Of a stretch of DNA of 64,000 bases, positions 5,611 to 44,003 are shown one piece after another; position 1 is the first letter of the stretch; each line of letters opens with the position of its first letter. This DNA comes from Azorinus chamasolen. Its lineage: Eukaryota; Mollusca; Bivalvia; Cardiida; Solecurtidae. The notes below the pieces were generated by a model. It was not told the DNA's origin and made no database searches. It worked only from the letters and a program-made list of their open reading frames with translations. The position numbers and the translations under genes were made by a program. Location: positions 79,793,620 through 79,857,619 of the forward strand of contig OY755244.1 in NCBI GenBank assembly GCA_963576725.1, in the 5' to 3' direction.

Positions 5611-5830
5611 CCCATTACCTCATAGGCTATTTTAGATACAACCTCTTTGAATAAATCTACCGAAAAGGAGCATTAACTAGAGAAAAGGAAAAGTTTAGAA
5701 TTTTGTAGTTTGAAATAATTGTGATAAATAGAGTATTTGCTCCTATAGGAGCAAATGCTCTATTTATCACAATGATTTCACGAAGTGACTTTTACAGAGT
5801 CGTCAAAAGTCGTTAATATGAGGGAATGGG
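5611..5830 (+). mobile_element. TTAA-3 MITE, complete
   Basis: TTAA at 5607-5610, ends CCCATTACCTCATAGG and GAGGGAATGGG, degenerate TAAA at the right. GCTCCTATAGGAGC lies at the centre (5739-5752). Just upstream (5578-5606) is the right arm of a TTAA-6 core. Confidence 0.85.
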
Positions 5831-5887
5831 TAAACAAAGGAAACTTCAAATTCTCCTGTGTTAAAATCTGAGCCGATGCTCTAATAC

Positions 5888-6078
5888 AGACTAACAGATA
5901 AAGATTCGTATTTAAATACTACAATCGTTATTTCTCCACCAAACTTATGTTGTAAACACTCTTTAGAATCGTCTCGAAGAGGCGATTCTAAAGAGTGGTG
6001 GCAACATAGGGTTTGGTGGAGAAATAAAGAAGTTATTCTTGAAAATGTTTTAATTTAAGCAGCTTGCCTGGACCCCTG
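5888..6078 (+). mobile_element. HP-1 MITE, complete
   Basis: ACAGATAAAGATTCGTA, a hairpin closing at CGTCTCGAAGAGGCG, then TGAAAATGTTTTAATTTA, ending CCTGGACCCCTG (inverted: CAGGGGTCCAGG). Confidence 0.75.
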
Positions 6079-6110
6079 TCTAATAACTAACCTTGTGTAT
6101 AGTAGAACAT

Positions 6111-6165
6111 CTCTAAAGTGGCCACACAAAATGAACGTTTAAGTCTTTAAAGACAGGTTTTGCTG
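6111..6165. mobile_element. TA-family MITE fragment
   Basis: AGTAGAACATCTCTAAAGTG and TAAAGACAGGTTTTGCTGC recall TA-family ends. There is no hairpin. Confidence 0.35.
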
Positions 6166-6224
6166 CTTAATGTATATACTGTAAGTATAATGTAGGCAGA
6201 TCATATGGAAGTTTTCTTTTGAGT

Positions 6225-6430
6225 GACAGAAACCCATATAAGATGTGTAAATTAAAACACTTTCAAGAATAATTCCTTTTGTTTCCTAACCAAAACCTAT
6301 GTTGTGACCACTCTTTAGAATCGTCTCGAAGAGACGATTCTAAAAAGTGGTCACAACATAGGGTTTAATGGAGAAATGACGATTTTAATATTTACATATA
6401 ATATTTACGCATCTTTATGTATTGCTCTGA
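6225..6430 (-). mobile_element. HP-1 MITE
   Basis: Inverted copy: ATAAGATGTGTAAATTAAAA, a hairpin closing at CGTCTCGAAGAGACG, AGGGTTTAATGGAGAAATGA and GCATCTTTATGTATTGCTCT. The right end is diverged. Confidence 0.7.
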
Positions 6431-6592
6431 GTGGTCAATGTACGGAGTTTTAATTGTAATTAGAGCGTCTGAAACGGTTTTTATATCGTGCTGCAAAACT
6501 TTCAAATAAAAATACACATACAAAGGATCTTCAAAAACTGTAAATGTCTGTTCGCGAGATGCATCTATAGTAGCATTTGTCCACAGCGAAAC

Positions 6593-6735
6593 GTACTGAA
6601 TAAACATTGGAGTCTAAAAGAGCAGGTGGTTGCTTAATACAGGACGAAAGTAATACAGAAAGGGCCTAGAGTAACTCTCTGTATGGTGTTCGCCCTTCAT
6701 TAGTTTGCTACCTGTTTTAAAAACTAAGCAAATAG
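6593..6735. mobile_element. TA-3 MITE, both ends lost
   Basis: GCAGGTGGTTGCTTAATACA, a decayed hairpin, and TAGTTTGCTACCTG keep the TA-3 interior. The CAGT ends are missing. Confidence 0.55.
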
Positions 6736-7637
6736 ATATTTTGGATGTTCGCTATAGTCATGTTTTACTGTAGTTCTCAAAAGATATTAGATTGATAGTT
6801 TGTTGAATTCTTGACATTTATGCCAGGGCCTGGTGTTTACACTTCGTTCTTTTTTAAGCAACAAGTAGCAGATCCTGTCAGAATAAAAGCCAAGCGTGTG
6901 TTGCTGATACTTTCGGTGGCCGAAAATGGTGTCCATGAATATCATAATGTCTGGTACTAGTGCTAAAACAATTGCAATTATTTTCATTAAGCGGAAAACG
7001 AAGTCTTAATGCCGAAACTTTCGGATTTTGATCACACATCGAGAGTGCTAATATATGACAAGGATCCAAACTGTATCTTAATGCAGTTTCCTTTGTTCTG
7101 GTCAGGTGTGTGAATGATAAAGCTTGGCCTAGACAACAAAAATGGACAAGGTGATAGAATGAATGACTCTGGCGACACTACACATCACCGTGATACTTTA
7201 CAAGGCGGACCTGTCTTTTCACATTCGTATGTATCCCCACGAGATGGTGAAACCTGCTTATAACATTGTAATCGCGTCTTAGTTGCTACATATCAATATA
7301 CACAATTCTGGACCAATTTTTCCTCGAAGTTTCAAACGCTCTCAGTGTTGACTGAATTGATATTGATGTAGGAAATATCCAGACCAAACTTAAACCGTGT
7401 CGGATAAGGAGAAGTCCGATAAAAAATGGCACGTCTACTAATTCAAACACATATCACAAATGATAATTTGATAATTAAGGCAAAAGGATAACAATGTATC
7501 TATCAATCAAATATTTCATAGATTTTAGAGAGCACTTATAAGGATGATGAATGATACACGAACAAGGACAACAATTGAGTGTTTTATCCATGCCAGGGTT
7601 ATTAGTCACTGTAAGAGCAATTAACAAATGTTTCTGC
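6736..7637. other. No recognisable feature
   Basis: About 0.9 kb without a coding frame, hairpin or repeat family that I can identify. Confidence 0.5.
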
Positions 7638-7641
7638 TTAA

Positions 7642-7845
7642 CCCATTCCCTCATATTGACGAATTTTGACGACCCTGTAGAAGCCACTTTGTGAAACCAT
7701 TGTGATAAATAGAGCATTTGCTCTATTTATCACAATGGTTTCATTCTACAAAATTCTAAAAAAAATCCTTTTCTCTAGTTAATGCGCCTTTTCGGTAGAT
7801 TTATTCAAAGAGGTTGTATCTAAAAATAGCCTATGAGGTCATGGG
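7642..7845 (-). mobile_element. TTAA-3 MITE, hairpin tip deleted
   Basis: TTAA on both sides (7638-7641, 7846-7849). The arms read GAGCATTTGCTC directly into the opposite arm, so the central TCCTATAGGAGCAA-type loop is gone while the outer element is intact. Confidence 0.85.
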
Positions 7846-7849
7846 TTAA

Positions 7850-8034
7850 ACTCTGTCGTAACAAATGTTTCTGTATAAAGTCTGAGAATTTGCATGTGTT
7901 TCCTGATTTCATTCGAGCTTTTAAGAAACTATTGACCGAATGTCAAATAGTTTGGATCCTGATGAGACGCCGAGTTACTCGGCGTCTCATCTGGACCCAA
8001 GCTGTTTGCAAGTGATGATTATATCGCAATCGGC
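7850..8034. mobile_element. TTAA-6-related MITE
   Basis: Starts at the TTAA shared with the previous element. Core GGATCCTGATGAGACGCCGA with a perfect opposite arm, ending GCTGTTTGCAAGTG. The right end is diverged. Confidence 0.6.
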
Positions 8035-8231
8035 AGAACAATGGGATCAGACGCCGACTTTTCAAAGCGACGTCTGATCAGGGACTTCATTGTTTTTGTC
8101 TCAATCTCTCTTTCTTTATCTGTGCTTTATTCCTTTGCCATTTGCATTTATTTATCTAATTTCCTTATTTTACCAAATAATTTAACAACAGTGGTTTGCA
8201 GACGACAATTAGAAATTTTGCACCGAAAGGG
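8035..8231 (-). mobile_element. TTAA-4 MITE, left end truncated
   Basis: Core GATCAGACGCCGACTTTTC and GACGTCTGATCAGGGAC, then the typical GTCTCAATCTCTCTTTC segment, ending GCACCGAAAGGG before TTTA. Confidence 0.75.
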
Positions 8232-8297
8232 TTTAGCAGGTAGGTTAATAAACTTCGAAAATTAGACTGAATTACTTTTGCCGGGTATTAATGAATG

Positions 8298-8357
8298 TCC
8301 CCTTTTAAAGACTCCCGTGGTTAATTAATAAATGACTGCTTAAGACTTGCTCTACAG
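8298..8357. mobile_element. TA-3 MITE right end
   Basis: AATAAATGACTGCTTAAGAC followed by TTGCTCTACAGTA matches the TA-3 right terminus, slightly decayed. Confidence 0.45.
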
Positions 8358-8444
8358 TAGCTCTGTACATAATCTTCACAATTAGGACATAAAATGTACA
8401 TGTTGATTTTCAGAGAAAATACTTATTTTACAGATAAAAATGGA

Positions 8445-8570
8445 ATAGTGGATAGATTGGAAGAGTGTTGGATGGGTGGAGAGAGGGGTGGGTAAATGGA
8501 TGGATGGATGGATGGATGGATGGATAAGTGGATGGGATCAATTGGGGTGTAATGAGGGGGGGGGGGGTGA
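8445..8570. repeat. GGAT microsatellite and G-run
   Basis: Imperfect GGAT repeats (about seven clean units near 8498-8525) within purine-rich sequence ending in a G-run at about 8558-8567. Confidence 0.9.
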
Positions 8571-8814
8571 ATGACAAATGGACGAACGAACTTATATCGT
8601 TGAAGCTAGCCTCTTCTAATCTATTTAACATCATAAGGGTCCAAATGTCACCTTGATTTGTTTCCCGCAAGACGATTTCAAAAGCGGGACCAGGGTGATT
8701 CGAAGCTGTCTGTAGAGGTTATAAAAACTTCCGCCTGTAATATGAAACCAATATCCATCACAATAACACACGTCATGTCCATTGAGCAAAAGGTTGTCGG
8801 CCTGTTAGAATTCA

Positions 8815-8900
8815 CCCCTTTACTCCATGAATATCCATGAATTTTCTCTTTTATTCCATGAACATCCATGTAAAAGAAATAATGACATCAATAATATCAA
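8815..8900 (+). mobile_element. TTAA-1 left-end fragment
   Basis: CCTTTACTCCATGAATATCC and ATGTAAAAGAAATAATGACA are the TTAA-1 left end, with an internal repeat of the first 35 bp. It is cut off where TTAA-5 begins. Confidence 0.6.
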
Positions 8901-8904
8901 TGAA

Positions 8905-9117
8905 CCCTTCTCTTGCTGAATTTTAAAATACATTTCTCCCTCTTTACCCATGCCCTGTTGTATATTTACATATATCTTCACTGTGTACAAGTAGTTCGCT
9001 GTGCAATCACTGTTGTGGAGTGCACTGGTTGCACGATCAACCTGCAGGAGCTGTCTCATCTGGGTCTTCACTATTTACAGGTATGTAGGTATATTGACGT
9101 GAATAGTAAGCGAAGGG
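8905..9117 (+). mobile_element. TTAA-5 MITE lacking the left hairpin arm
   Basis: Ends CCCTTCTCTTGCTGAATT and GCGAAGGG; TTAA at 9118-9121 and degenerate TGAA at the left. The left arm of the core is missing: ATCAAC joins directly to CTGCAGGAGCTGTCTCATC at the symmetry centre. Confidence 0.8.
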
Positions 9118-9127
9118 TTAACTATTT

Positions 9128-9255
9128 TTTGTTATAATGGCACTATGGAAAAGGGGTCTTTTAAACAATTTGACAAACTTGTAGAATTACATCTATATTA
9201 TTTCATAAACAGGGTCTTCTCTGTTTGCAAAATCGCATCTACGGAGTACACGGTT
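9128..9255 (+). mobile_element. TTAA-1 MITE without hairpin
   Basis: GTAGAATTACATCTATATTA then ATAAACAGGGTCTTCTCTG. The hairpin has been deleted, and only the outer right arm and GCAAAATCGCATC follow. Confidence 0.6.
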
Positions 9256-9576
9256 AAGAAGCAATTATAAGTTTCTATGTCACTGTATATCAGTTCTGCA
9301 ACTCTGAGCTCCCTGTGTGCACTGTTAGGGAGCGGATTGTTGTTTCTGATATTTGAGCTTGTTGCGTGGGCGGCTAGGCGATACGGCCTTTAAAGTCGCA
9401 ATAGTTGTCACGTTTGTTTTGTCTTATCGATGCCGCAATATAACACTTTTCGCTGTCTCAGAACCGCGTGCCATCTGAGAATGAAATTGTCGTCTGCTGC
9501 TAGCAGAGCCACCTGCTGTCGACTGATGAAAAATGCTTGTCGAGATTTGTTTCCAGATTAGTATAGCTTTTATGTC
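9256..9576. other. No recognisable feature
   Basis: No coding frame or repeat recognised. Confidence 0.5.
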
Positions 9577-9582
9577 TTTAAA

Positions 9583-9778
9583 CCTTTCCTTCATATAAAC
9601 ACTTTTTTCACGCATTTGCAAACAGAATAGAGCCAGATCAGACGGATTCCGTACATGATAAAGATACAATTCTACAGTTTTTGTCAAAGCAAAAAAAAAT
9701 AATTACATTTTAAAACTTGAGCTAATAAATATTCATTTTGTCATTATTTTCTTACACGAATACTGAGCAGATAAAGGG
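9583..9778 (-). mobile_element. TTAA-1 MITE lacking one hairpin arm
   Basis: Left end CCTTTCCTTCATATAAAC, one arm GAGCCAGATCAGACGG, then directly TGATAAAGATACAATTC. Ends ATAAAGGG with TTAA at 9779-9782. Confidence 0.7.
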
Positions 9779-9782
9779 TTAA

Positions 9783-10580
9783 ATAACTATCATTAACCGG
9801 TTTGGATTTAGAGATTTTATTCAGAAATAAAAAAAAACCAATTTGTTCACGCGTCTAACAGCAGATGGTTATAGGACAGGATAGATTTGGACCTTATCAT
9901 GCTTTTCGCGCATTTGCCACTTCTTAGACACTAAGATTTCACGTAATATGTTCTAACGTACTTAGAATATAACCTATATTTTGAATGACCCAGCATAAAT
10001 CGTTTCCATGGTTTTAGTAAACAAACGTCGCTCGACCACAGGACTTCACGCGCCAAGTGTGGCGTCACGCGAGGTCGAAAGAAACAAAACTCTTAATGAT
10101 TAAGTGCTGCACTTAATGAGGTGCAAAGGGCAGTTTGATCAGCTTAAATGTAGGTTATATTATATACGTGCAAAAGATGATGCTTTACCGCGAATAATAA
10201 CATATATTCTAACAGGACTCTGAACATGAACGAACTGCAGGCGCTGCACTTCGATCGACTGTCCCATTTACCCCACACGCGAAATATATCAATAAAAATC
10301 TTTAAATCGCTTGATATACAGAGTCAAATGTAATTTTACATTTCTGAATCTGTAAACACGATGTCTCTGGCATAGAGGCGTGCAGATATGATGTAAAATG
10401 GTATAGTTGTTGGCTGTAGCCTTTTTGACTTGGAATTGTTGTTTTCTGTTGTAATTTGGCCGTTTACTTGTACAACATCATGGGTGAAAGTCGTGTCTAC
10501 AGAGTAAATGTAACAGCAAAAATGACGTAACCACTGACAACGCTTCCGGTGTTGACGTATTCTCCGGGAAAAGTACTTTT
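9783..10580. other. No recognisable feature
   Basis: About 0.8 kb without repeat families or a coding frame that I can support. Confidence 0.5.
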
Positions 10581-10582
10581 TA

Positions 10583-10832
10583 TCCCCCCCCCCCCCCGAT
10601 CAGATCGCGGGGTATTGTTTTTGCCCTGTCTGTCTGTCTGTTTGTTTGTCAGCATCTTTAACATTGATTATAACTTTTGAGCCAGTACAGACAGAGACTT
10701 GATATTTGGCATGCATGTGTATCTCATGAAGCTGCACATTTTTAGGAGGGACATGTCATGGTCAAGGTCATCCTTCAGGGTCAAAGTTCAAATTGATCGG
10801 GGGCATAGTGTTTCACGTACACATCTTGTTTT
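10583..10832 (+). repeat. Dispersed repeat of molluscan type
   Basis: Starts with a C-run and CCCCCGATCAGATCG and closes with GATCGGGGGCATAGTG and ACACATCTTGTT, so the ends are partly inverted. The interior has GGTCAAGGTCATCCTTCAGG and further GGTCA-like half sites. I recall similar sequence as abundant in bivalve and gastropod genomes. Its transposon class is unknown to me. Confidence 0.55.
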
Positions 10833-10835
10833 TTA

Positions 10836-11435
10836 ATAAAAAGTCGTGTTTGAATCGAAATAATAAATTCGTAGCTGTGCATTATCGCACATTAGATCAC
10901 AGTTAGGACTTGAGACGTGGAGTTATCAGACCACGAGACCTTTATAAAACGACGTTACCAATAGGAACAGCTCAGTAATGTTTAGGATTTGTTGCGAATA
11001 GCCAATTTGCACACATGATATTAAACGAGGCTTGGAAAATGTCATTAAGCGAGCCTCTGGACTGACAGAGAAATAAACACAGCACGAATTAAAGCCAAAA
11101 CTGGTGAAAGCACAAAGAGATACATATTAAGTCATAAAAGGTGAGCTAAAACTACTTGAACATGTGCAAATAGTTGGAAAAATAAAAATTAAACTTCAGA
11201 CAGACGAAAACCAAATAAATGCCAATCTTTTAAAGTACAGAATTTGTGCAAAAGTTTATATCTGTTAGTGTGTATAAAATAATTGTGTCTATAGTTCAAA
11301 AGTGATTGCCGCTGCGTTTTTCTGAAACACAATCTTAATCCCAATCCATTGGGAAACAGAGATCATAAAGTAACGCGTATTTGTCCTTGCAGCATCTGTT
11401 AGTGCCATTGTGAAATTTTAGAGTTTAGCGCAAAT
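10836..11435. other. No recognisable feature
   Basis: No coding frame or known repeat. Confidence 0.5.
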
Positions 11436-11437
11436 TA

Positions 11438-11846: not shown

Positions 11847-11855
11847 AGAAAAATA

Positions 11856-12374: not shown

Positions 12375-12380
12375 TAGAAT

Positions 12381-14040: not shown

Positions 14041-14064
14041 CATTAAAGCACCAATGGCAGTCTA

Positions 14065-15357: not shown

Positions 15358-15586
15358 ATTTACTTCATGAATATGCATGTAAGAAGTAATGACATCATGA
15401 ATATTAATTAGATTTTTTTTATAATGGCGCATGGAAATGTTGACCATACTAGATAATGTAGAATCATATCTATATTATTTCATAAGCAAACAGAGCAGAC
15501 CCAGACCAGACGGCTCCTATAGGAGCCGTCTGATTTGGGTCTACTCTGTTTGCAAAGGCGTAGACAGGCGTTTTATGGAGTAAAGG
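15358..15586 (+). mobile_element. TTAA-1 MITE
   Basis: Left end truncated (TTTACTTCATGAATATGC), complete hairpin with GCTCCTATAGGAGC at 15513-15526, right end GGCGTTTTATGGAGTAAAGG and TTAA at 15587-15590. Confidence 0.85.
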
Positions 15587-18499: not shown

Positions 18500-19070
<571 letters not shown>

Positions 19071-19940: not shown

Positions 19941-20234
19941 CAGACACTGTTACCAATTATCAGTTTAAGAACACATATTGCACTTGATAACAACTGAAGG
20001 TGATTTAAACCAAAAGCAATATTTAAGAATTTGTAACAGACTTAAGAATTTTATCAAATTCATTTTGGTTTGAATTAGATGTTCAATGCTTAAACCGTCA
20101 TTTTCTTTTTAAAAATATAACAGAATGTCTCTAAGGTTTCAGTTTAGATAAAATTATTTCATATATCTCCTCTATATGTAAGTGTAATACCCATAATCAG
20201 TTAAGCCTGGTACATGTACTAAGTCATTACTTAG

Positions 20235-20455
20235 CCCATTACCTCATAGGCTATTTTAGATACAACCTCTTTGAATAAATCTACCGGAAAGGAACATTAA
20301 CTAGAGAAAAGGAAAATTTTAGAATTTTGTAGTTTGAAACCATTGTGATAAATAGAGCATTTGCTCCTATAGGAGCAAAATACTCTATTTATCACAATGG
20401 TTTCACAAAATGACATTTACAGAGTCGTCAAAAGTCGTCAATATGAGGGAATGGG
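20235..20455 (+). mobile_element. TTAA-3 MITE, complete
   Basis: Left flank TTAG, right TTAA (20456-20459). CCCATTACCTCATAGGC to GAGGGAATGGG, with hairpin centre GCTCCTATAGGAGC. Confidence 0.88.
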
Positions 20456-20769
20456 TTAAGAATGTTCGTGAAACTGGGGCCTGGATCCAAGCTTGCGAAT
20501 GCCAGTCAAGTTGCACTGTGACGGGATAAGGGACATTTTACCCGGCCTAATACAAACAACCGTTGTAGTGGTGTTGTTAGCATTATAACATTAATTTAGT
20601 TGTTTTATTAGCGTATTGAAATTAAATAATGCCCTTCACATAAATGCCTTCTGAATGAATAGCGACGATAGCAATACGTACACTTGTTTTACATAGTCCA
20701 TTGAGGTTGTTGCTGTCCTCGCCGCCCAGGTTCGAGAAACCAACCATTGGGACTCTAGATAGCAAACCA
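20456..20769. other. No recognisable feature
   Basis: Only a scrap of a TTAA-6 arm (CCTGGATCCAAGCTTGCGAA near 20480). Confidence 0.4.
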
Positions 20770-22620: not shown

Positions 22621-22699
22621 TGTCTTATTACCTTTAGGCCTGTACTCCTCTTATGTACAGTTTTATACACTGACCTTCTCATTTGGCATTGTCTGTGTA

Positions 22700-23081
22700 A
22701 TATGATTTGACTGTGATATGTTGTTATATGATACATGTATGACAGTAATGTGTTGTTATATGATATGACGGTTCTATGTTGTTATATGATATGACAGTTA
22801 TATGTTGTTATGTGATATGACAGTTATATGCTGTTATGTGATATTACAGTTCTATGTTGTTATATGATATGACAGTCCTATGTTGTTATATGATATGGAA
22901 GTTTTAGGTTGCTATATGATATGACAGTTCTATGTTGTTATATGATATGACAGTCCTATGTTGTTATATGATATGCTAGTTCTATGCTGTTATATTACAT
23001 GACTACTCTGTGTTGTTATTTGATATGACAGATAAATGTTGTTATATGAAATGACAGTTATATGCTGTTATACGCTATGGC
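22700..23081. repeat. 26 bp minisatellite
   Basis: About 14-15 imperfect copies of a unit reading CTATGTTGTTATATGATATG plus ACAGTT. It stops where half of a TTAA-3 element begins at its hairpin centre. Confidence 0.92.
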
Positions 23082-23560: not shown

Positions 23561-23690
23561 ATTTTCTAGGCACTCTTAGGATGGTTTTACTGATTACAAA
23601 CAAATGTCTATGTTCGTAACAAAAGATGGACATAATTTGAACAGAGGTTTAATTCTGTCATTAACTTTGCAAACACGCTACAGTAAAACC

Positions 23691-23884
23691 TCTCTTTAAT
23701 GGCCACTAAATTACATCAAGTATTTTGTGTTAAAGGCAGGTGACTGCTTAAAGCAATGTGAAAGTAAAACAGAACGCTCCTATAGGAGCGTTCTGTTTTA
23801 CTTTCACATTGCTTTAAGCAGTCACCTGCTCTAAATACCACCTAATTAACGCAATTTAGTGGCCGTTATAGAGAGGTTTCACTG
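23691..23884. mobile_element. TA-1 MITE, complete
   Basis: TA at 23689-23690 and 23885-23886. CAGTAAAACCTCTCTTTAAT to GAGAGGTTTCACTG. Perfect hairpin from GGTGACTGCTTAAAGCA through GCTCCTATAGGAGC (23776-23789) to its inverse. Confidence 0.92.
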
Positions 23885-24013
23885 TAGATATAAATGAGAC
23901 GCCAAGGCACTCGGTGTCTCGCTGTATTTCAAACAGACACTCTAATAATGTTTTATAGTTTTGTTTGAACGAATGTTCGTCCATTGCATTTTAAAGAAAT
24001 AAACACAAGGCAT

Positions 24014-26805: not shown

Positions 26806-28505
26806 CTAAGTAAGACGGTGGCTTTCGAGGTCTTGTTGATCTTCTTGGGGTGATTTCGGAGATGGTCTTATCTCTTCATGTTCAACATGATCTGCAGAGG
26901 TAAGTACATTATCAGTATCAAGTGATGGAGGTCTAGGAATAACTATTTCCTGAGGATCCTCTACAATCAAGTTATCTTCTGATACTATATCATCAGTTGA
27001 TACAGTTAATTCTGTTATGTTGTCTGTGGGACGACTTTCACTTGAATCAACATGATCAACTATAACTTGATCATCACTAACTGGCATCTCTACTATATCA
27101 TCTGAATTGTAGGCGTCCCTACTAGAATGTGTCACAATGACATATTCACTATCAGATTCACTGTCGGTGACGTCACCTTTCTGATTTGACTCAAGTAATT
27201 GTTTACTTGAAGCCTCTATACATATATTATCTAAATTCCTTTTCCTTGGTCTAGGAATAGGCCTAGTACTATCTTTCTTATCCTCTGTGTCCTTATGAAT
27301 TTCCCCCTTATTCAAAAGTAGTAGATGGTTGCGATGTAAAGTTCGCGCTTTGCCTTCTGTATCTATCAATTTAAAAACAGGAATATCTGGAATTGGTTGA
27401 TCCGCAACTGTATATGTATTTTCTTCAAACTTATCTTGGATCTTATGCTTTCCTTCATGAATAAGTTTCTTAACCAAGACTGTATCACCTACTGAAATAT
27501 TGTCTGCCTTTGCTTTCCTATCATAATACTTTTTCTGCTTTTCCTGAGACTTCTCTGTTTGTTCCTTAACTGCTGAAGTTGCAAATTGTAATCTATCCCT
27601 AAGTTGTTGCACATATTCATCGTAGGAAATTGTATTATTATTATCATCATCAACTCTTTCAAAAAGTGTATCAACTGGCAAAGAAGCCTTCCTACCAAAC
27701 ATCAATTCAAATGGAGAATATTTGGTAGTCTCATGCTTTGTGCTATTATAAGCATAAACTAAAGGTCCTATATATTTTTTCCAGTCAGGTTTTTTTCTGA
27801 GGATCCAAAGTTCCAAGCATATCCAATAAAGTTCTGTTGAATCTCTCACAGGTTCCATTGCCACTCGGATGAAATGGTGTAGTTCTAGATTTTTCAATGT
27901 TAAAAATTTCACACAACTCTTTAATCAACTGTGATTCAAAATTTCTTCCCTGATCCGAATGAAGACGTTGTGGAATTCCATAATGTAAAATAAAATGCTC
28001 ATACAAAGCTTCAGCTGTGGTTTTTGCCGTTTGATTCTTTGTTGGAATTGCCAAAGCCAATTTGGTAAAATGGTCTGTGACTACCAGAATATTTCCAACT
28101 CCTCTACTTGGCTCAAGAGTCAAATAGTCCATACAAACTAATTCCAAGGGTTGTGTTGTAACAATATTAACTAAAGGTGGTCTTGAATTACTCTTGTCTT
28201 TCCTTCTTATACATCTATCACATTTCTTGACCCAAGATTCACAATCAGAAGCCATTCCAGGCCAAAAAAACCTTTCCCTGGGTAAAGATAAAGTCCTGTC
28301 TCTACCTGGATGTCCAATATCAGTATGCAATCCCCTCAAAACCTGTCCCCTGTATGTTTCCGGAAGAACTAACTGTTGCAATGGTTCACCATTCTCATTA
28401 ATGATTCTGTATAAAACTCCTCTTATAATTTTAAACTTTTGAAAATTATTCTTCATGATATGATCCTCCTTAATGTATATTTGCGTTTGCATATGACCCT
28501 CAAGT
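26806..28505 (-). pseudogene. pol: Ty3/gypsy pol remnant: integrase and C-terminal tail
   Basis: Integrase inserts retrotransposon cDNA into host DNA. The first reading frame (27785-28492) has the zinc-binding HHCC module (His56, His61, Cys91, Cys94 from its first Met) and a DDE core with Asp122, Asp180 and Glu216, the last two 35 residues apart as the family requires. Seven T at 27790-27796 (A on the coding strand) shift the frame, and the protein continues in a second frame to 26806. This part has an integrase region with motif YAYNSTKHETT, a basic stretch ending KYYDRKAK, a GPY/F-like segment ending TLHRNHLLLL, then about 150 acidic residues ending at the stop. Gag, protease, reverse transcriptase and RNase H are absent upstream. 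It is a truncated, probably inactive copy; the one-base shift could also be an assembly error in a homopolymer. Confidence 0.9.
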
Positions 28506-31016
28506 ATTTAGTAGTGAACTGTCTTTTCATTAGTTAATACCTAGACTAGCATACAACCTTACTTTAATGCCTCTACACCATGGCCAAACTAGATTTAAAA
28601 TCCATATATACAATGTACAGTCTGCTGTCGTGATGAAAATCCTGGTGTCATTCTTACGACTTAGTAGTTATTTCAAATCACTGTATTTTATGATAATTAG
28701 CTGCTCCAACTTCGCAAGCTGTAATAAAAGCAAACGGTCCATATTAACCTAACCACACCAAAACGGAAGACATTCTGTTATACAGACATTTTCTATAAAC
28801 TTCTCAGAGTTCAGTGAAAACCCCATATAATACAGAAAGTCATAATTTACGCAGATATTTAGCATGGAATACTGTCGAAAGTTCTGTTCTTAAAATAGAT
28901 GTTACTGGGAAATTCCCATAATAATCAAAGTACTGATGTAGTGATGTACTGATGATATTTCAAAGCGAAAATTGTATTAAATTAGGATTTAAAGAATTTA
29001 GACAAACGAAATTTTTATGGCAGTGAAGATGTAACTATTTTTTTTAACAATAATTGCTGATAATATAACTAAAAGTAATAAACTTCAACAGTATGAAATA
29101 TGAGTATAATGTAGTAAGAAACAATATGTAGACGAAATAATAAACAACCGGATCAGTATTAAAATATAGTTTTATAAATTTATTTTTCTGAATGTAGTAA
29201 AATATAAATGTTTATTACAAATGTAAACAGATCCATGAATTTAAGACATATATGTTAGACATATTTATGTTTGAAAACAGAATTGACCCTAAGCAGAATG
29301 AAGTCTGATCTTGGTCAGCTTTGATAACCGAATCTTTTTCTGGGGTTTGAATTTCAAATCCATTGCTCTTGTGTGAAAAGCACCTCTATGGATATTCATG
29401 ATGTTATATTTTTTCACAAGAAAAGATTGCGGATACTCCGTAAATATTTATTTAGAATTTTGCTACCAGTATATTATTCAATGACGTATTTTTTATCTGA
29501 ACTTTGGCAGGAAAACATTGCATTGTAAAACGAACTGTAGATTCTAGATAGTCACTCATTCAAAGTCTCTAAACCACATAGCAAGGAGAGGACATTACTT
29601 ATGACTAAGATGTTGTTCAAAAACTGGACGTACCCCTTTGTTTTAACGCAAAGTTGTAAAAGACGGGTTTTTTTGTTTGTTTTTTTTTTTTTTGTGGGGG
29701 GAGGCCGAAACAGAAAGTACTTATCCAACCTTGTACTAGAAATAGAATGTCTTGTTTGCACAACGTGAAGGGCACTCTACAAATTGAAAGCTCGCCACTG
29801 CGCCGTTCTGAAAATTACCACAATGAAGTGACTACTAAATCATATACTGAATTGAGAATAGTTAGTTCTAACAGATTATCAAATTTTCTTATTAAGTTGC
29901 TACAGATGAGTATCATGACAAATCCAGCATTCTAAAAATAGAAAATATCTCCCAAATAGTCGCATTCTGGTTTATGGACTCTTGTAGATGAATGAATGAA
30001 CTTAGTTGTAAACAATATATCCATACGCTCGGAAAGATATCAGTTGTCTTTACCACTGTACTTGTCATACTTTCAATCCCCTTTTACTGTCTCATCTCTC
30101 TCCGGATTCATATTCTACCAATTTTTCATTTTAGCGGAATAGTTCATTCACAAATGAGTAAAAGGCATGAATTCGACTCTGACTAAGATAGTTTCAAATT
30201 CAAAGAGTTTGAAACCATCAAAACAGACGTACACGACGAAGATAATCGAGGTCTCCGAAATATGTTGGCATATTTAAGCAGTTGTTTCACAATTCTCCGG
30301 TTTCATCAAACTGGGTACTGTATAAATATAAATCATAATTTCAAATAACAACAACAATAATAACATCTTCATCGTCTTCATCCAAAGATCAATGATAACA
30401 CGTCATCATAGGTATTCGCTTCATCATTTAAGATTTGAATAAATGAGGTATAAATAAAATCTCTTTAATGATAGTATAAAAACCATTAACATATAAATAT
30501 AATAAATTCTCACAAATAAATAATGTTACATGTATAACTATTGAAATACCACAATTGGTGCCACACTTTATATCAGTTCCAAACAAACTATCGTACTTAT
30601 AACCTCATGGTAATAATTGGAGAGCATTATTACCAGTTTGACGAAACCACTATTCAACTTTCAAACTTTTATTATCATTTTGCTATCCATTTAATACCAC
30701 ATTTGGTTATAAAGTCCACTTTGACGAACAGGTAGTTTGACGAAACCACCACAATCAACATGCAACACAATAGGAAATAAAGAAGAAAGGTTGTTTAATA
30801 AATTAAAGTAGTGGCATTATTATTATTATTAATTACTATCCCCGAGCGTAGCACCGAGGCTCTGGTTGTTGGCTCTCTGTGATATAAAGCTACTTACTGA
30901 AGGCTATAGCTACGGCGCTCTATCACCTGGGGCTTTGGATCGTGGAAGTAGGTTGAGGTTGCTAACTTTATATTGTTTTAAAAATAGATTTAGTTAATGA
31001 TGTCACTAATGATGAT
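28506..31016. other. MITE-poor stretch without gene
   Basis: About 2.5 kb of AT-rich sequence. Only a decayed TTAA-1 core near 29270-29330, a T-run near 29672-29690 and short ATT repeats near 30820 are visible. No 5' LTR of the gypsy element and no exon were found. Confidence 0.5.
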
Positions 31017-32194: not shown

Positions 32195-32388
32195 CCATTT
32201 CCTTCATGGTTCCTAGAGGAGCTGTCTGATCAGGGTCTGCTCTGTTTGCTAATAGAATTTGATAAATATGTTTCTTTGCTTTCTAAAATGCCTGCAATGT
32301 TCCAAGTTCCATATTTCTTTATAAGTATTTTGTTAATGAATATTCAGTAGGTATTGAAATTTGGAATAAACACAGAACAGGGAAAGGG
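32195..32388 (-). mobile_element. TTAA-2 MITE lacking the left hairpin arm
   Basis: TTAA at 32191-32194 and 32389-32392. CCATTTCCTTCATG joins directly to GTTCCTAGAGGAGCTGTC, so the left arm and its flank are deleted up to the centre. Confidence 0.8.
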
Positions 32389-33406: not shown

Positions 33407-33746
33407 ACATTTCCCTGTTCTGTGTTTATTCCAAATTCCAATACCTACTAAATAGTCGTGAACAAAAATGTTATAATAAAATATGGAAGATGGAACATTG
33501 TAGCCATTTTAGAAAGCAATGAAACGAAACTTATCATATTCCATTAGTAAACAGAGCGGACCCAGATCAGATCTAATAGCACAATGGACACAGAAAATTT
33601 TGGCCGTGGTAGAAACTGTAGAATCATATCTATATTCTATCATAAGCAAACAGAACAGACCCTGATCAGACGGCTCCTATAGGAGCCGTCTGATCTGGGT
33701 CTTCTCTGTTTGCAAAGGCGTAAACTGCGTATTTATGGAGGAAAGG
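33407..33746 (+). mobile_element. Chimeric MITE: TTAA-2 left half joined to TTAA-1
   Basis: 33407-33560 is TTAA-2 from its left end into the left arm (GCGGACCCAGATCAGAT). From there the sequence is TTAA-1 from AGCACAATGGACACAG through a complete hairpin (CTCCTATAGGAG) to TTTATGGAGGAAAGG. Confidence 0.7.
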
Positions 33747-35756: not shown

Positions 35757-35977
35757 CCCATTCCCGCATAAGCTATTTTTAGATCCAACCTCTTTGAATA
35801 AATGTACCGAAACGGAGCATTAACTAGAGAAAAGGAAACTTTTAGAATTTTGTAGTTCTGAAACCATTAGGATAAATAGAGCATTTGCTCCTTAGAAGCA
35901 AATGCTCTATTTATCACAATGGTTTCAAAAAGTGACTTTTACAGAAGCGTAGAAAGGCGTATTTATGGAGGAAAGGG
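35757..35977 (+). mobile_element. TTAA-3b MITE (TTAA-1-like right end)
   Basis: TTAA at 35753-35756 and 35978-35981. The left half and hairpin are TTAA-3. The last 30 bp (GCGTAGAAAGGCGTATTTAT to GGAAAGGG) match the end of TTAA-1 instead of GTCGTCAATATGAGGG. Confidence 0.85.
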
Positions 35978-37040: not shown

Positions 37041-37044
37041 TTAA

Positions 37045-37557: not shown

Positions 37558-37597
37558 TTAATTTGCGAAACAAATGGGTCATTTTCATTGTCAAATA

Positions 37598-37882
37598 CAG
37601 TTGAACTGTCGGATAACTCGCAGTAAATTTTATGTCCGGTCCGTCAACCATGTTCATTAAGACATCACTACGCATATCTAGAAACACATATGGCAGCTTA
37701 ATGCAGGTAGAAAAATTTAGAAAGCTCCTACAGGAGCTTTGATCATTATTTTCGACCTACATTAAACTGTGAGATGTAAACTTGAGAAATTGCCCATATT
37801 AGAAATTGGATGACACAAACGTCTGTTATCTAGATTCAATTTGTATGGTCCCTTGAAGTTCGAGATATCCAAGTTCAACCAC
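37598..37882 (-). mobile_element. TA-5 MITE
   Basis: TA at 37596-37597, CAGTTGAACTGTCGGATAAC; hairpin AAAGCTCCTACAGGAGCTTT; ends TTCGAGATATCCAAGTTCAA. Confidence 0.75.
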
Positions 37883-37904
37883 ACACTGCTCTATGACGGT
37901 TTAA

Positions 37905-38110
37905 CCTTTAGCCTGCTATGGGCGGATGAGTGAATACCTATGCAAACAGTTTGGATCCAGATGAGACGCCGAGTAACTCGGCGTCTCATCAGGATCCAAA
38001 CTGTTTGACACCCTGATTGCATTTTGGAAGAAAAATTGATTACAACTTGAAATTTGAAACTGTAATAGGTGAAAAATTATGTAAAAATAATTTGCTCAGC
38101 AGGCTAAAGG
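37905..38110 (+). mobile_element. TTAA-6 MITE, complete reference copy
   Basis: TTAA at 37901-37904 and 38111-38114. Inverted ends CCTTTAGCCTGCT and AGCAGGCTAAAGG. Perfect hairpin AACAGTTTGGATCCAGATGA, centre GCCGAGTAACTCGGC, with A in CCAGATGAG on one arm against T in CCTGATGAG on the other. Confidence 0.92.
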
Positions 38111-38367
38111 TTAAGCTTCACATCTCGGTAAGATTAACCAATAACTCTCACAATCTTTTACATGGGGCATAGACAGGCAACGTAGACCTAGATTAAAAGG
38201 GGCCATGAATGACCCCTTTGGTCTGAGTCTGTATTTGTAGGACAAAGGTTTCTACTAGCTTATCCTGCTTCTGTACAAACACCCCTCGAATGAAAAATCG
38301 ATGGGTCCCAACTTATAATTTAGACGAATTCACCTCATAAGTATGACATATATAGTATAGGGGTTAA

Positions 38368-38555
38368 CCTTTTCCTTATATGAACGCCTTTCACGCATTT
38401 GCATATAGAGTAGACTCAGATCAGACGACTCCTTTAAAAGCCGTCTGATCAGGATCTATTGCGTGCCTTAGACATGATATAGATCTGATTCTCCGGTTTT
38501 TGTCAAAGCCAAATATTACCTTGAAAAATTAACAATAAAACATTGAGCTAATAAT
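38368..38555 (-). mobile_element. TTAA-1 MITE, distal end lost
   Basis: TTAA at 38364-38367, CCTTTTCCTTATATGAACGC; core centre CTCCTTTAAAAG; runs to AACATTGAGCTAATAA, where HP-1 begins. Confidence 0.75.
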
Positions 38556-38960
38556 AGAGCAACAGGTAAAAGGACATACAGTAAAACCTCTCTATAACGG
38601 CCTATACATCACATAGAGTAGTTTGTGTTAAAGGCAGGTGGCTGCTTAAAGCAAGGTGAAAGTTAAACAGAACGCTCCTATAGGAGCGTTCTGTTTTACT
38701 TTCACCTTGCTTGAAGCAGCCACCTGTCCTAATATGCCAACTAATTAACACAATTTAGTGGCCGTTATAGAGAGGTTTTACTGTACTCAAATACATGTAC
38801 TAAAATCATAATTTATCTACCAATTCCTATGTTGTGACCACTCTTTAGAATCATCTCTTCGAGGTGATTCTAAAGAGTGGTCACAGCATAGGGTTTAGTG
38901 GAGAAATAAAGGAGGTATTCTTGAAAATGTTTTAATTTACACATTTTACCTGGGCCCCTG
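38556..38960 (+). mobile_element. HP-1 MITE interrupted by TA-1
   Basis: The left end GAGCAACAGGTAAAAGGACA stops at TA 38577-38578 and resumes after the TA-1 at 38784 with TACTCAAATAC. It ends TTACCTGGGCCCCTG. Joined, the two parts match other HP-1 left ends. Confidence 0.8.
38579..38783. mobile_element. TA-1 MITE nested in HP-1
   Basis: TA at 38577-38578 and 38784-38785. CAGTAAAACCTCTCTATAAC to GAGAGGTTTTACTG, with GCTCCTATAGGAGC at the centre. Confidence 0.92.
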
Positions 38961-38968
38961 TGTAACAA

Positions 38969-39150
38969 ATAAAAACAATAGCATCATGAATATAGGCTAG
39001 GTTTACTTATATAATGACATATGAACATTGGAATGCTTGGCTATGATAGAACTACGTGTATGCCTATGTTATTCCATAAGAGCAGATCCCTATCAGATCT
39101 GATCTGGGTCTACCTTGTTTGCCATGGCATCAAAATGCTTCTCTATCAGG
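38969..39150 (+). mobile_element. TTAA-1 MITE, ends lost
   Basis: TAGCATCATGAATATAGGC, GGCTATGATAGAACTACG and AGAGCAGATCCCTATCAG joined to TCTGATCTGGGTCTACC (hairpin tip deleted). Confidence 0.65.
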
Positions 39151-39155
39151 TCTGT

Positions 39156-39915
39156 TTTCGTGTATTGAAATCACCGAGAACCGAATCCGATACGTATGGT
39201 ACCGGCGGCGGACACACTACCACAACCGAACAGAATATAAAGTCCAACATCTACAGCACATGTGCATGGTAGTGTTATGTGTTGAATTGGTCCAAATATA
39301 TCAGAGTCAAATGCTCGCAAGAAGTATTTTGAATTTGCTAAAAATAGAAAAAATACACCAAGAACGTAACATCATCCCCAAAACAGAACACTTTTTATTG
39401 TTTTATTGGCAGATCGGACAAAATGATTGTTTTAGTAAATGAAAGGAGCGCCTAGTTTATTGCCATGTTTATATGTCTATTCTGACTTAATGTGTTTGTT
39501 TTGATATTCATGTTTCCTGCGCTTCAGTCCCAGTTTCGAAGCATGAATGAACCATTGCTGTCAGCCATAAAAGGCAATTTCGGGAAAAATGCCACTGAAA
39601 ACGTGGAATATTCTGTTACAAAATCGAACAATGTTCGGAAAACATCGCGTTTGCCAAATAAGGAAATTGTCGGGAGTTGATAATCGTCGCGCTTATCGGT
39701 TAATCTTAAGCAGTGCGTCTATGAAACATGTATTCAGAGAGAGAGTGTAAGAGTTCGGGTATTTTCGGCATTCAATAATCTATTCTACGATCAGTATTCG
39801 GGCTAACTATCATACCATATAAGGAAATTTCCGTATGAAATCCGATATCCAACGACACGCTAATGCCACAATACGCATTCATAGAATACAAGTGGCACAT
39901 TGATCATATCATCTG
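39156..39915. other. No recognisable feature
   Basis: Short open frames with no domain, and no MITE. One of the longer MITE-free stretches of the right half. Confidence 0.45.
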
Positions 39916-39919
39916 ACGT

Positions 39920-40130
39920 TTAACACCACTCGTGCTAAGCATGTCTTGCATGGCATTTGCAAACAGATTGGATCCAGATGAGACGCCGAGTAACTCGGCG
40001 TCTCATCAGGATCCAAGCTATTTTACACTCGGTGTGTAGCTTCTCAAAGATTTCAACGAATCGGAAGACTGCGAAACAATCAGCAAATCAGAGACTGAAC
40101 AGACATTTGTTTTCAGCATGCCAATGGTTA
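39920..40130 (+). mobile_element. TTAA-6-related MITE
   Basis: Perfect core AACAGATTGGATCCAGATGA to ATCAGGATCCAAGCT, then ACACTCGGTGTGTAGCTTCT and a right part like 17640-17705. The ends are not clear. Confidence 0.65.
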
Positions 40131-40256
40131 CTCTGTGAAATCGATAGGCAACAGTTACAACGTCCCGATGGGACGATTGGGATGTATCTCACACGAACAG
40201 ACTGAGGATAGCGATACCGCTAGTGTTGCAAGATGAAGTTAATGAAACGGCCTTAA

Positions 40257-40504
40257 CCCTGTCCCTGTTCTATAAAAATATGCTGTTCAAATTTCAACAC
40301 TTACTGCATGTTCGTAGACAAAATAGTTGTAATGAAATATGGAAAGTGGAACATTGTAGCCATTTTAGAAACTAAAGAAACGGATCTATAAAATTCCATT
40401 AGCAAACAGAGCAGACCCTGATCAGACGGCTCCTATAGGAGCCGTCTGATCTGGGTCTTCTCTGTTTGCAAATGTGTGAAAAGGAGTTTATATGAAGGAA
40501 AGGG
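40257..40504 (+). mobile_element. TTAA-2 MITE, complete
   Basis: TTAA at 40253-40256 and 40505-40508. CCCTGTCCCTGTTCTATAAA to GAAGGAAAGGG; both arms complete, centre GCTCCTATAGGAGC at 40429-40442. Confidence 0.92.
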
Positions 40505-40582
40505 TTAAACTATGTAGACATAATAAGATCAGTTTTAATCTTACAAGCATATCTGCATTTCCTTTCTGTGATTCATTTATAA

Positions 40583-40765
40583 CCCTTATCACGCTGTGAC
40601 AAAAATAAGTCTGCTAAAAAATTGGATCTTGGGTAATAGTGACTACTTCCGAATCGATCAAATCGATTCCGAATGTCAAATAGATTGGATCCTGATCAGA
40701 CGCCGAGTTACCCGGCATCTCATCTGGATGTAGGCTGTTTGCAAATGCGAGTGAGGATGGGGATA
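40583..40765 (+). mobile_element. TTAA-6-related MITE
   Basis: CCCTTATCACGCTGTGAC, AATAAGTCTGCTAAAAAATT, core GGATCCTGATCAGACGCCGA with opposite arm CATCTCATCTGGATG. Confidence 0.65.
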
Positions 40766-40877
40766 TCCAATTAAAAAGGTTTAGGGTAGAAATTAAGAGT
40801 AATCGGTTTAATCTAGTATGAATATGAGCGAAGCGTCGCGATTACTCTGAATATGCCATAGTGCCAAATAACATTTA

Positions 40878-41105
40878 TACCTGATGAATATGTACGTTAC
40901 AAATAATTATATTATGAATATTTAATAGCTGAATTTGTATAATGACATTCTTTTGAAAATAGTCATATTAGCATTGACAGAAACCGTGGAATCAAATTTA
41001 ATTATTTCTTTAGTAGAGAGCTGACGCAGATCAGACGGCTCATACAGTAATTGCAGGATCTGGGGTCTTCTCTGTTTGCAATGGTGTTACAATAAGGGCG
41101 TACAC
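40878..41105 (+). mobile_element. TTAA-1 MITE, degraded
   Basis: CCTGATGAATATGTACGTTA, GACAGAAACCGTGGAATC and GGGTCTTCTCTGTTTGC. The left arm has decayed. 41142-41240 may be a further TTAA-type end (TTAACCCGCCGTGAG). Confidence 0.55.
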
Positions 41106-41283
41106 CGGTATGCTTTTAAGTTGCCAGGAATTTTCGTAACACTTAACCCGCCGTGAGAAAAGAACAACAAATGTTTTTCTCAAATTTGGATCTGAGGCCA
41201 ATTCGACGACACTCGATTCGGTCAGTCGTGTCGCAGAGTAGCCGGTGTGGGTTTAACTCACAAAACATAAACACAAACCTTAA

Positions 41284-41503
41284 CCATTCTCTCATAATGA
41301 TGTCTTTTGGCGCCTCTGTAAAAAAATCTTTCTGAAACCATTGTGATAAATAGAGCATTTGCTTATGTGTAGCAAATGGTCTATTTAGCACAATGGTTTA
41401 AAAACTATACAATTCTAAAAGTTTCCTTTTCTCTTGTAAATGCTCTTTTTCGGTAGATTTATTCAAAGAGGTGGAATCTAAATATAGCCCACGAGGGAAT
41501 GGG
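41284..41503 (-). mobile_element. TTAA-3 MITE, complete
   Basis: TTAA at 41280-41283 and 41504-41507. CCATTCTCTCATAATGATG to CGAGGGAATGGG; hairpin tip GCTTATGTGTAGC. Confidence 0.88.
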
Positions 41504-41535
41504 TTAAAACGTGAGGCCAAAACTTGAATCAGCAA

Positions 41536-41705
41536 CCCTTCATCTCATGAATATTAATATAAGAAATGATAACATCGTGAATATACATTAGCCGGATTTT
41601 TAATCACGCCTACACATAGGAATATTTGACGACCATGGCAGAAAGTTCAAACTATAGAAGTAAATCTGTATAACTCCAGGAACAAATAGAAAAGGCCCGG
41701 ATCAG
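41536..41705 (+). mobile_element. TTAA-1 left half
   Basis: CCCTTCATCTCATGAATATT to AAAGGCCCGGATCAGA, where it is cut off by the 285 bp tandem repeat. Confidence 0.65.
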
Positions 41706-42683
41706 AAAAAGAGAGTCTGTTCATGGGAGTTATTTAACCCTTTCCTCCATAGGCTATTTTTAGATCCGACCTCTGTGAACGAATCTACCGAAAAGGAGCA
41801 TTTACTAGAGAAAAGGAAAAGTTTAGAATTGTGTAGTTTTGAAACCATTGTGATAAATAGAGCATTTGCTCCTATAGGAGCAAATGCTCTATTTATCACA
41901 ATGGTTTCAATAGGTGATTTTTACAGAGGCGTAGAAAGGCGTATTTATGGAGGAAAGGGTTAAAGTGCAACATTACCCACGCCCCCTAGTACCGACTAAA
42001 GCGGTATTCAATTATCATAAGTAGGACATTGAACTTTATTATTCCAAAGCGCCAGAAAATATACCAACACTGAGAAGGGAGTACGGGGCTACTTTTTACG
42101 GCCGCAACACAATCACTTAACATCTGTTGTTGTGAACTACATAAATTCTGAAAGTATGATATCCTTCGAAAGCAAAAGCAGCAATGCGAAAAGGGAAAAT
42201 TGCAGACCTGATTTCATTGAGTCTGTTTATTAGCAGTTACTTAAAATGTAACACAACTAAAGACCCCACACACTAGCACGGACTTAAGCGGTTTTCAATT
42301 TTCATAACTAAAAGCACTGAGACTGATTAAGCCTAAGAACATGAAAATATAACAATACTGAGAATGAAGTACGGGGCGACTTTTTATGACCACCACACAA
42401 GCACTTAGCACTTGCTGTTGTGAAGTACATATATTCTGAAAGTAGGAGATCCTTCGAAAGCAAAAGCAGAAATGTGAAATCGAAACTTGCATACTCGGTT
42501 TAATTGAGTCTGTTCATGGACAGCTATTAAAAGTCCAACACTACTCACGCCATCTAGCACCGGCTTAAGCGGTATTCAATTTTCATACCAAAGGCATTTA
42601 AATTTATGAGCCCGAAGGGCCAGAAAATATAACAACACTGGGAATGAAGTATGTGGCAATTTTGTACGGCCGCCACACAAGCA
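41706..42683 (+). repeat. Tandem repeat, unit about 280-286 bp
   Basis: A short end piece (41706-41737), then units at about 41960-42240, 42241-42526 and a truncated one at 42527-42683. Shared words include GAGTCTGTTCATGG, CTTAAGCGGT, GAGTACGGGG, CTTCGAAAGCAAAAGCAG. Units differ by roughly a tenth of positions by eye. No similarity to known satellites is claimed. Confidence 0.85.
41738..41959 (+). mobile_element. TTAA-3b MITE inserted in the tandem repeat
   Basis: TTAA at 41734-41737 and 41960-41963. Removing the element and one TTAA gives GTTATTTAAAGTGCAAC, which matches the unoccupied unit junction at 42236-42252 (GTTACTTAAAATGTAAC). The right end is TTAA-1-like. Confidence 0.93.
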
Positions 42684-42710
42684 AATTCCTTGAACGTATT
42701 TTATGAATAT

Positions 42711-43005
42711 GTGCGACGGTCTGGTGGTAATGCGCTTGACTTCCAATCCGGAGGTCCGGGGTTCAAATCCCGGTCCCTCCAGGAAATTTCGGAGATGCTT
42801 TTCGGTGTCTCCAGCCCGCACCTCCTCTCCACTAAGGGGTTAAAATGGGTACTTGTGAGGGTTACTAGCCGGTACTGCGGCTGCATGATTGTGCCATAAT
42901 TATGTGAGCAGTGTTCAATATTGTAGGCGAACGACTCCGTGACCAGGGGAGTAAATGCACAGTCGACTGAGCGGTCATTCAAACTGAAAGTAGACTATAA
43001 CGAGT
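42711..43005 (+). mobile_element. tRNA-derived SINE, copy 2
   Basis: Head GGTCTGGTGGTAATGCGC (box A-like), CTTCCAA, and box B GGTTCAAATCC. The body through TCCACTAAGGGGTTAAAATG and CATGATTGTGCCATAA to GAAAGTAGACTATAAC matches copy 1. Confidence 0.85.
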
Positions 43006-43031
43006 TAATTTTCATTTTATGAATAAACATA

Positions 43032-43322
43032 CAGTTTGACTTCGATATCTCGAACATCAAGGGACCATACAGATTACTTCGAGATAATAGAGTTTCGAGA
43101 TATCCGATTTTCAAGCTGAACAATTAATCAAGTTCACAGCTTAATGCAGGTTTAAAGTAATGCTGAAAGCTCCTGCATTAAGCTATCGCATGTGTTTCTA
43201 GATATGCGTAGTGATACAGTTTTAGAACAATTCAGAACTGTAAATTTTGGAAGGACCGAACATTTACTTCGAGTTATCCCGAAGTTCGAGTTATCTGAGT
43301 TCGAGATATCGAAGTTCAACTG
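43032..43322 (+). mobile_element. TA-5 MITE lacking the right hairpin arm
   Basis: TA at 43030-43031 and 43323-43324. CAGTTTGACTTCGATATCTC to GATATCGAAGTTCAACTG. The core reads GCTGAAAGCTCC directly into TGCATTAAGC. Confidence 0.88.
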
Positions 43323-43357
43323 TACTTACTAACAAATAAATGTATTTACAAGCATTC

Positions 43358-43490
43358 AAATGCAGAATGATAGTAATTCAGATAACTCCTGTGGGTGCTT
43401 CTGTATAACTTTAATCCTGCATTAAGCTACTACATGCCTTTAAGATCCAAAATAAGACCTGTTTTAGTGGTCGCTTTGGGGGGGGGGGGT
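43358..43490. mobile_element. TA-family MITE, ends lost
   Basis: AATGCAGAATGATAGTAATT, hairpin AACTCCTGTGGGTGCTT, CCTGCATTAAGCTACTACAT, ending in a G-run. Confidence 0.55.
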
Positions 43491-43623
43491 GCTATACTAC
43501 GCATGTAATATACCAGGGGTACAAATAAGATGTGTTAACAATTCGCATGCTATAAAAATTATGTCAGCTAAAAATAATCCCTGTAATATTTCTTTTAAAA
43601 AACAACCTATCCAGTTGGCTTAA

Positions 43624-44003
43624 CCCTTTACTCAATAAATACGCAAAGTCTACGCCTTTGCAAATTTGCAATTGCTATCGTTTCTGTCAAGGCCAAAATA
43701 AATATTCTCGTGTTCATGTGTCATAATAACAATTAATTTAGTTCATAGTCATGAAATACAGTAAACCCCCGCTAATGCGACCACCACCAAAATGGGGCAT
43801 AATTCTGGGTGGCAGAGGCAGGTGGTAGCTTAATGCAGGACAAAAGTTATGCAGAAAGCTCCTATAGGAGCTTTCTGCATAACTTTCGTCCTGCATTAAG
43901 CCACCACCTGCTTCTAAATGGAGAAATGTTTATTCATTAAGTGGTCGTATTAGAGGGGTTCTGCTATAACTATCTGTTACATAAAGATGCATGGAGTAAA
44001 GGG
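43624..44003 (-). mobile_element. TTAA-1 MITE without hairpin, interrupted by TA-2
   Basis: TTAA at 43620-43623. CCCTTTACTCAATAAATACG; the hairpin is lost (CCTTTGCAAATTTGCAATTG). It is broken at TA 43757-43758 and resumes after the TA-2, ending TGCATGGAGTAAAGGG. Confidence 0.75.
43759..43965. mobile_element. TA-2 MITE nested in TTAA-1
   Basis: CAGTAAACCCCCGCTAATGC to GAGGGGTTCTGC; centre GCTCCTATAGGAGC at 43858-43871; perfect arms. Confidence 0.88.

Follow-up and report, generated by a model that had tools for sequence, protein, structure and literature searches.

Hairpin families and their shared centre

We analysed a stretch of 64,000 nucleotides from the bivalve mollusc Azorinus chamasolen (GenBank assembly GCA_963576725.1, contig OY755244.1, positions 79,793,620 to 79,857,619 of the forward strand; hereafter the window, with positions counted from its first letter), which holds several families of short elements built around a hairpin, with one 14-bp palindrome, GCTCCTATAGGAGC, recurring at the symmetry centre. 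We refer to this centre as the tip and to the inverted sequences on either side of it as the arms. GC content in the window is 34-40% per 4 kb. The elements span 200-256 bp, are short and non-coding, carry terminal inverted repeats and reach a high copy number, and it is on this anatomy that we class them as miniature inverted-repeat transposable elements (MITEs).

Families, defined by alignment of the window copies together with a search for their ends, have distinct combinations of arms, ends and centres; lengths are given for copies in which the two ends could be located. Family A (~250 bp; ends TTAACCCTTTCCC...GGGAAAGGGTTAA) has hairpin arms of ~30 nt and is asymmetric outside the hairpin, and family B (~229 bp) has ends of the form TTAACCC(A/T)TT... 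and arms AAATGCTCTATTTATCACAATGG; both are palindromic near the tip only and have the terminal repeat consensus TTAACCC.../...GGGTTAA. An intact TTAA on both sides is retained by 4 of 13 copies in A and by 5 of 12 in B, the remainder having a decayed or unplaced end. Families C and D (~208 bp) have TA-flanked ends like CAGTARAACCYCTCTATAACG, with terminal repeat consensus TACAGTARAACC.../...ACTGTA and TA at both ends in 5/6 C and 6/8 D copies; family C is a palindrome over nearly its full length, ends included, with arms of 97-111 nt that are 83-87% complementary (inverted repeats I2-I5). Family E places the centre CTCCTGCAGGAG between A-like arms, family G places GCCGAGTNACTCGGC between arms of the A/E type, and families F and H differ from all of these in arms as well as in tips. 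Judged from the ends alone, TTAA as opposed to TA with CAGTARAACC..., two types of transposase would be involved; we take the ends of A and B to be piggyBac-type and those of C and D to be Tc1/mariner-pogo-type.

The original prediction had put the exact 14-mer at the centre of five elements with differing arms. In each of the five a hairpin is indeed centred on it: at 5739-5752 in a family B element with TTAA-type ends (TTAA-3, 5607-5834, plus strand, delimited by end search and family alignment, its tip located by 14-mer search and dyad scan), at 15513-15526 in a family A hairpin whose outer ends could not be placed reliably (TTAA-1), at 23776-23789 in a TA-flanked family C element that is palindromic from end to end (TA-1, 23679-23886, plus strand), at 40429-40442 in a family A element with TTAA at both ends (TTAA-2, 40253-40508, plus strand), and at 43858-43871 in a TA-flanked family D element (TA-2, 43757-43968, minus strand). 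These copies represent four families, A, B, C and D, as those at 15513 and 40429 both belong to A, and the number of unrelated arm classes is three (A/E, B and C/D) because the arms of C are related to those of D (22 of 32 bases).

Seven further exact copies bring the window to twelve. Two are in family B, at 20363-20376 (copy 20231-20459, from 14-mer and end search) and 41868-41881 (41734-41963, plus strand, TTAA at both ends); two are in family A, at 33673-33686 (assigned by alignment) and 63111-63124 (63045-63295, minus strand); and three are in plus-strand family C elements, at 38674-38687 (38577-38785), 52683-52696 (52586-52793) and 63864-63877 (63767-63968). The family E variant of the tip, GCTCCTGCAGGAGC, occurs at 61374-61387 and again at 62634-62647, and one of the eight window copies of family G has its dyad at 37974, with A/E-type arms and the tip GCCGAGTAACTCGGC. 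A D-type hairpin with its dyad near 54288 lies within a third kind of TA shell (54143-54466, ends TACAGTTGAACTTCAATATCTCGAA...TTCGAAGTTCAACTGTA).

Allowing up to two mismatches, the window contains 46 copies of the 14-mer, against 0.09 expected from 100 shuffles. Exact copies number 178,273 across the genome (1,723,440,353 bp, 137 contigs), in which the reversed sequence, taken as a control, has 0 copies and the uniform expectation, by our own arithmetic, is ~6. Chance as the origin of the copies is ruled out by the shuffle counts and by the empty control; the earlier observation is confirmed, and is larger than first noted.

Tip alleles and arm classes

A symmetry scan that assumes no particular sequence found 71 dyad centres in the window and, with low-complexity hairpins dropped before the count, 124 in twenty 10-kb stretches at fixed positions on contigs C1-C10 (L081-L100), giving a combined set of 195 hairpins in 264 kb that was not selected for the tip. 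Scored as zero to two mismatches, or, for 16 B copies, as a form with one base fewer, the tip is centred in 47/68 A/E, 30/32 B, 16/19 C and 16/22 D hairpins, and in none of the 21 G, 11 F, 6 H or 16 other hairpins (0/54 together), some of these others being B or D hairpins that lack it. The shorter form accounts for 16 of the 32 B hairpins (e.g. GCTCCTATGGAGC; window positions 35893 and 59819, and L094:4073) and is apparently a separate subfamily. The family H hairpin GTCAGATTTGAGCCNNNGGCTCAAATCTGAC, which lacks the core, is found at window position 46265 and at L083:4111, L087:8175, L091:5509, L091:6183 and L100:7271.

Genome-wide, intact inner arms around any 14-nt centre occur at 71,323 (A), 69,205 (B) and 52,312 (D) places. 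Centres were read for the first 80, 91 and 66 of these places, respectively, all within the first 3 Mb of contig C1; the demand for perfect inner arms biases these lists to younger copies. For family C (inner-arm pattern AACAGAAC-N14-GTTCTGTT) the centres were taken from the 264-kb sample. Among the listed places, 59/80 A, 86/91 B and 57/66 D centres are within two mismatches of the 14-mer, and 17/80, 48/91 and 7/66 match it exactly, the exact form being the commonest single one in B and C, but not in D. The constant part is GCTCCT-NN-AGGAGC, with two variable central bases whose mix depends on the family: A places have TAGA (24/80), TATA (22/80) or TACA (18/80) at the centre, D places TAGA (35/66) or TATA (15/66), and B places predominantly TATA (70/91, comprising the 48 exact copies and 22 others), as do 8 of 11 C copies. 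A difference in consensus centre between the TA and TTAA families, which the original prediction had named as evidence against a shared centre, was not found in the lists for A, B and D, and the exact tip is present in 7 of the 11 C copies, so no differing TA centre appears there.

The arms have less in common than the tips they enclose. Those of A and E align with each other, as do those of C and D, and A/E, B and C/D show no convincing mutual alignment. Immediately outside the 14-mer each of these families has its own base (A has G, B has T, C has C and D has A), which bounds the shared unit sharply at 14 bp. Homologous arms, for their part, enclose at least three tips besides this one: of 125 hairpins recovered with A/E/G-type arms (GATSAGAC...GTCTSATC, each arm permitted a single mismatch), 78 have the shared tip, 24 have CCGAGTNACTCGG, 4 have a CCGCCTT-like tip and 13 have another, two of these resembling CCACATNATGTGG and some lying out of register; in the other 6 the tip is very short or lost. 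The sequence switches among these tips at, or about one base from, the same arm-tip boundary. The occurrence of one tip in several arms, and of several tips in one kind of arm, is what a module would show and a single line of descent would not, and on this sequence evidence we conclude that tips and arms have separate histories.

Descent of all the tip-bearing families from a single founding hairpin, with arms and ends later changed past recognition around a tip that stayed as it was, could account for the recurrence of TCTG at arm positions 3-6 in A, C and D and for the ungapped arm matches between A and C (15/32) and between B and C (14/32), each with a nominal p of ~0.02. The remaining cross-class scores are unremarkable, however, the ends are of two kinds, and neutral decay as fast as that of the arms would not preserve the tip, and we regard common descent as very improbable.

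Selection or exchange at the hairpin tip

Selection on the tip should be visible either in individual copies or in the source elements from which they derive. Within families, the mismatch rates at the ten stem bases of the tip and in the arms are, respectively, 0.147 and 0.104 in A, 0.021 and 0.029 in B, 0.027 and 0.031 in C, 0.116 and 0.125 in D, and 0.056 and 0.045 in E, these rates coming from a separate count because the family A alignment has duplicate rows (pairs 14316/14536 and 32021/31772, from overlapping windows). The stem thus decays about as the arms do in four of the five families and faster than the arms in A, so that single copies, once inserted, show no constraint on the tip; purifying selection at the level of copies is unseen in these rates. 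Nor does the 14-mer form an exceptional DNA hairpin, as equal or greater stability is reached by 82 of 420 palindromes with its base composition, leaving unsupported the idea that the tip is favoured for the stability of its fold alone.

Selection acting on source elements is the main rival to exchange, though on balance we consider it unlikely. It supposes that GCTCCTNNAGGAGC is required at the apex, either by a host or trans-acting factor or when a hairpin RNA transcribed from the element is processed, and that unrelated sources converge on the tip or keep it. Consistent with this, the consensus has the same outer 12 bases in each of families A to E despite an arm difference of ~30% between A and E and between C and D, and related founders keep the tip somewhat better than the arms (13/14 half-tip positions vs 45/64 arm positions, Fisher p=0.07), a result that counts against exchange; both kinds of end would then hang on one common factor. 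Set against selection are the numerous G, F and H hairpins with other tips (0/38 have the core), together with the stem decay and the unexceptional stability described above. Of the two possibilities raised by the original prediction, a recombining module and a selected tip, it is the module that draws support, from the reticulate anatomy, and selection is not visible on individual copies.

With no copy-level protection of the tip, an indecisive founder test and an unexceptional hairpin, we favour exchange between source elements over selection: the tip GCTCCT-NN-AGGAGC, on which no fewer than four families with three unrelated arm types and two kinds of end are centred, may well have been passed between source elements by recombination, a reading that we nonetheless hold tentatively. 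The shared tip, its 14-bp boundary, its copy number and the existence of more than one tip-arm combination are the observations on which it builds, and the route of exchange is probably recombination at the hairpin tip. An inverted repeat would extrude as a hairpin at replication, and the extruded tip would be opened and then repaired from the self-complementary tip of another element; such repair would swap the tip only, leaving the arms and ends of the family as they were, and the converted source element would be amplified by its own transposase. The TAGA and TATA alleles that A and D have in common support such exchange. A bolder proposal, which we think doubtful, treats the 14-bp tip as a minimal selfish unit in its own right: with neither ends nor genes, it would spread by tip-to-tip conversion among MITEs of different transposase superfamilies and, riding on the mobility of its host elements, would have reached ~178,000 exact copies.

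Several results weigh against exchange. The TAGA centre is found in just 1 of the 91 B places, so tip alleles do not flow freely. The association between tip alleles and arm sites is too weak, in sets too mixed (the D set included C-like copies), to count for either side. Three cross-class arm scores are nominally low (p 0.004, 0.022 and 0.024; A-B in local alignment at 0.004, A-C and B-C ungapped at ~0.02). An exchange event was never directly seen: the window and the twenty sampled stretches together hold 142 tips, of which none stands at a junction of two unrelated arm classes, 108 have the same or a related class on both sides (two of them A/E mixes), 26 have one recognisable arm and 8 have none. 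The unrelated-arm junction was accordingly rejected as an exchange intermediate (0/142). The proportion of tips between two unknown arms, 8/142 in the unselected 264 kb, is 0/76 in 30 loci chosen for the exact 14-mer (L051-L080), some of which overlap (L072/L073 and L076/L077 contain the same tips twice).

The 26 one-armed tips bear on a further explanation, in which a broken, one-armed copy folds on the 5-bp stem of the tip and primes copying of its flank, so that a new family is born with new arms and ends around the old tip. This predicts a palindrome over the whole length of the element, ends included, as is seen in C; some of the one-armed copies break within three bases of the tip (e.g. 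at 32209 and 46036), and the sharp 14-bp boundary is consistent with such an origin. However, it leaves the different tips on homologous A/E/G arms unexplained, A and B are palindromic just near the tip, and many of the one-armed cases are merely decayed copies; we consider it improbable. Tips are lost altogether in some hairpins and show signs of instability, and at 61677-61716 an A-type hairpin has part of an arm and half of its tip repeated in a perfect tandem duplication of 19 bp.

Whether the tip is exchanged or selected matters for how MITEs are read, as their families are classed and dated as though each had a single history. If tips move between families, even between those with different ends, MITE families cannot be told by their centres, and recombination becomes measurable at hairpin apices; from the ~193,000 arm-intact hairpins of three families in one genome, both the rate of exchange and the direction of donation would be directly estimable. 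If the tip is selected instead, it points to an unknown factor needed by both kinds of end.

Known systems and other sequences

MITEs in general resemble the elements described here in being short and non-coding, with inverted terminal repeats, TTAA or TA ends and very high copy number; what sets the present elements apart is a single 14-bp centre common to families with different ends and unrelated arms. Foldback-like or palindromic transposons such as Galileo also have long inverted repeats, and their dynamic structure has been ascribed to ectopic recombination, template switching and the repair of gaps (PMC4168063). Variation in Galileo concerns the terminal repeats, and its own palindrome, of 15 bp, is a motif of the target site and not a tip shared inside the elements (PMC4168063). 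The bacterial repetitive extragenic palindromes (REPs) are palindromes of 20-40 bp, one end of which bears GTAG or CGTC as an unpaired tag (PMC3733652). One short tag is thereby common to many palindrome families, much as the tip is here, but the REP tag is unpaired and terminal, whereas the tip is the paired apex of an element; with lengths of 200-256 bp, terminal inverted repeats and an apical shared motif, the present elements fall outside this definition of REPs (PMC3733652).

A literature search for the exact 14-mer returned no paper; just its inner 12-mer occurs in four papers, whose titles concern other subjects. Among the titles listed by further searches none was on a shared MITE centre, which does not in itself prove absence in print; the accessible text of PMC10294476 does not contain the word "hairpin", nor that of PMC8905726 the string "palindrom".

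Translation of the A arm and tip gives (N)xxDPDQTAPIGAV(W)SGSTLF, and a protein search with one A copy from the window (TGA read as W, E up to 10) matched 30 predicted proteins from other ENA assemblies (P0122-P0151; best E 2.6e-7, weakest 0.63). The A string lies inside differing flanks in these proteins, with APIGAV across the tip in 26 of the 30, a fraction biased upward because the query has the same words. These matches suggest that the A hairpin, with its tip, is present in other assemblies and in other surroundings, the matched proteins themselves probably being artefacts of annotation. A search with the E-type translation matched one protein. A viral or phage origin was considered and rejected, as 50 IMG/VR stretches with the 14-mer show little extended symmetry (best arm score 6) and scans for the tip-plus-arm pattern gave no match.

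No tRNA genes, and no Rfam families at gathering score, were found in the window. A Pfam scan of ten of its open reading frames revealed no transposase, the only domains being those of a Gypsy integrase; these belong to a remnant of a Gypsy-type retrotransposon integrase at 26809-28507 on the minus strand, with Integrase_H2C2 and rve in the open reading frame at 27788-28507. The window also contains a 550-bp array of the tetranucleotide GTCT (18513-19062) and an AT-rich tandem array with periods of 26 and 78 bp (22696-23079).

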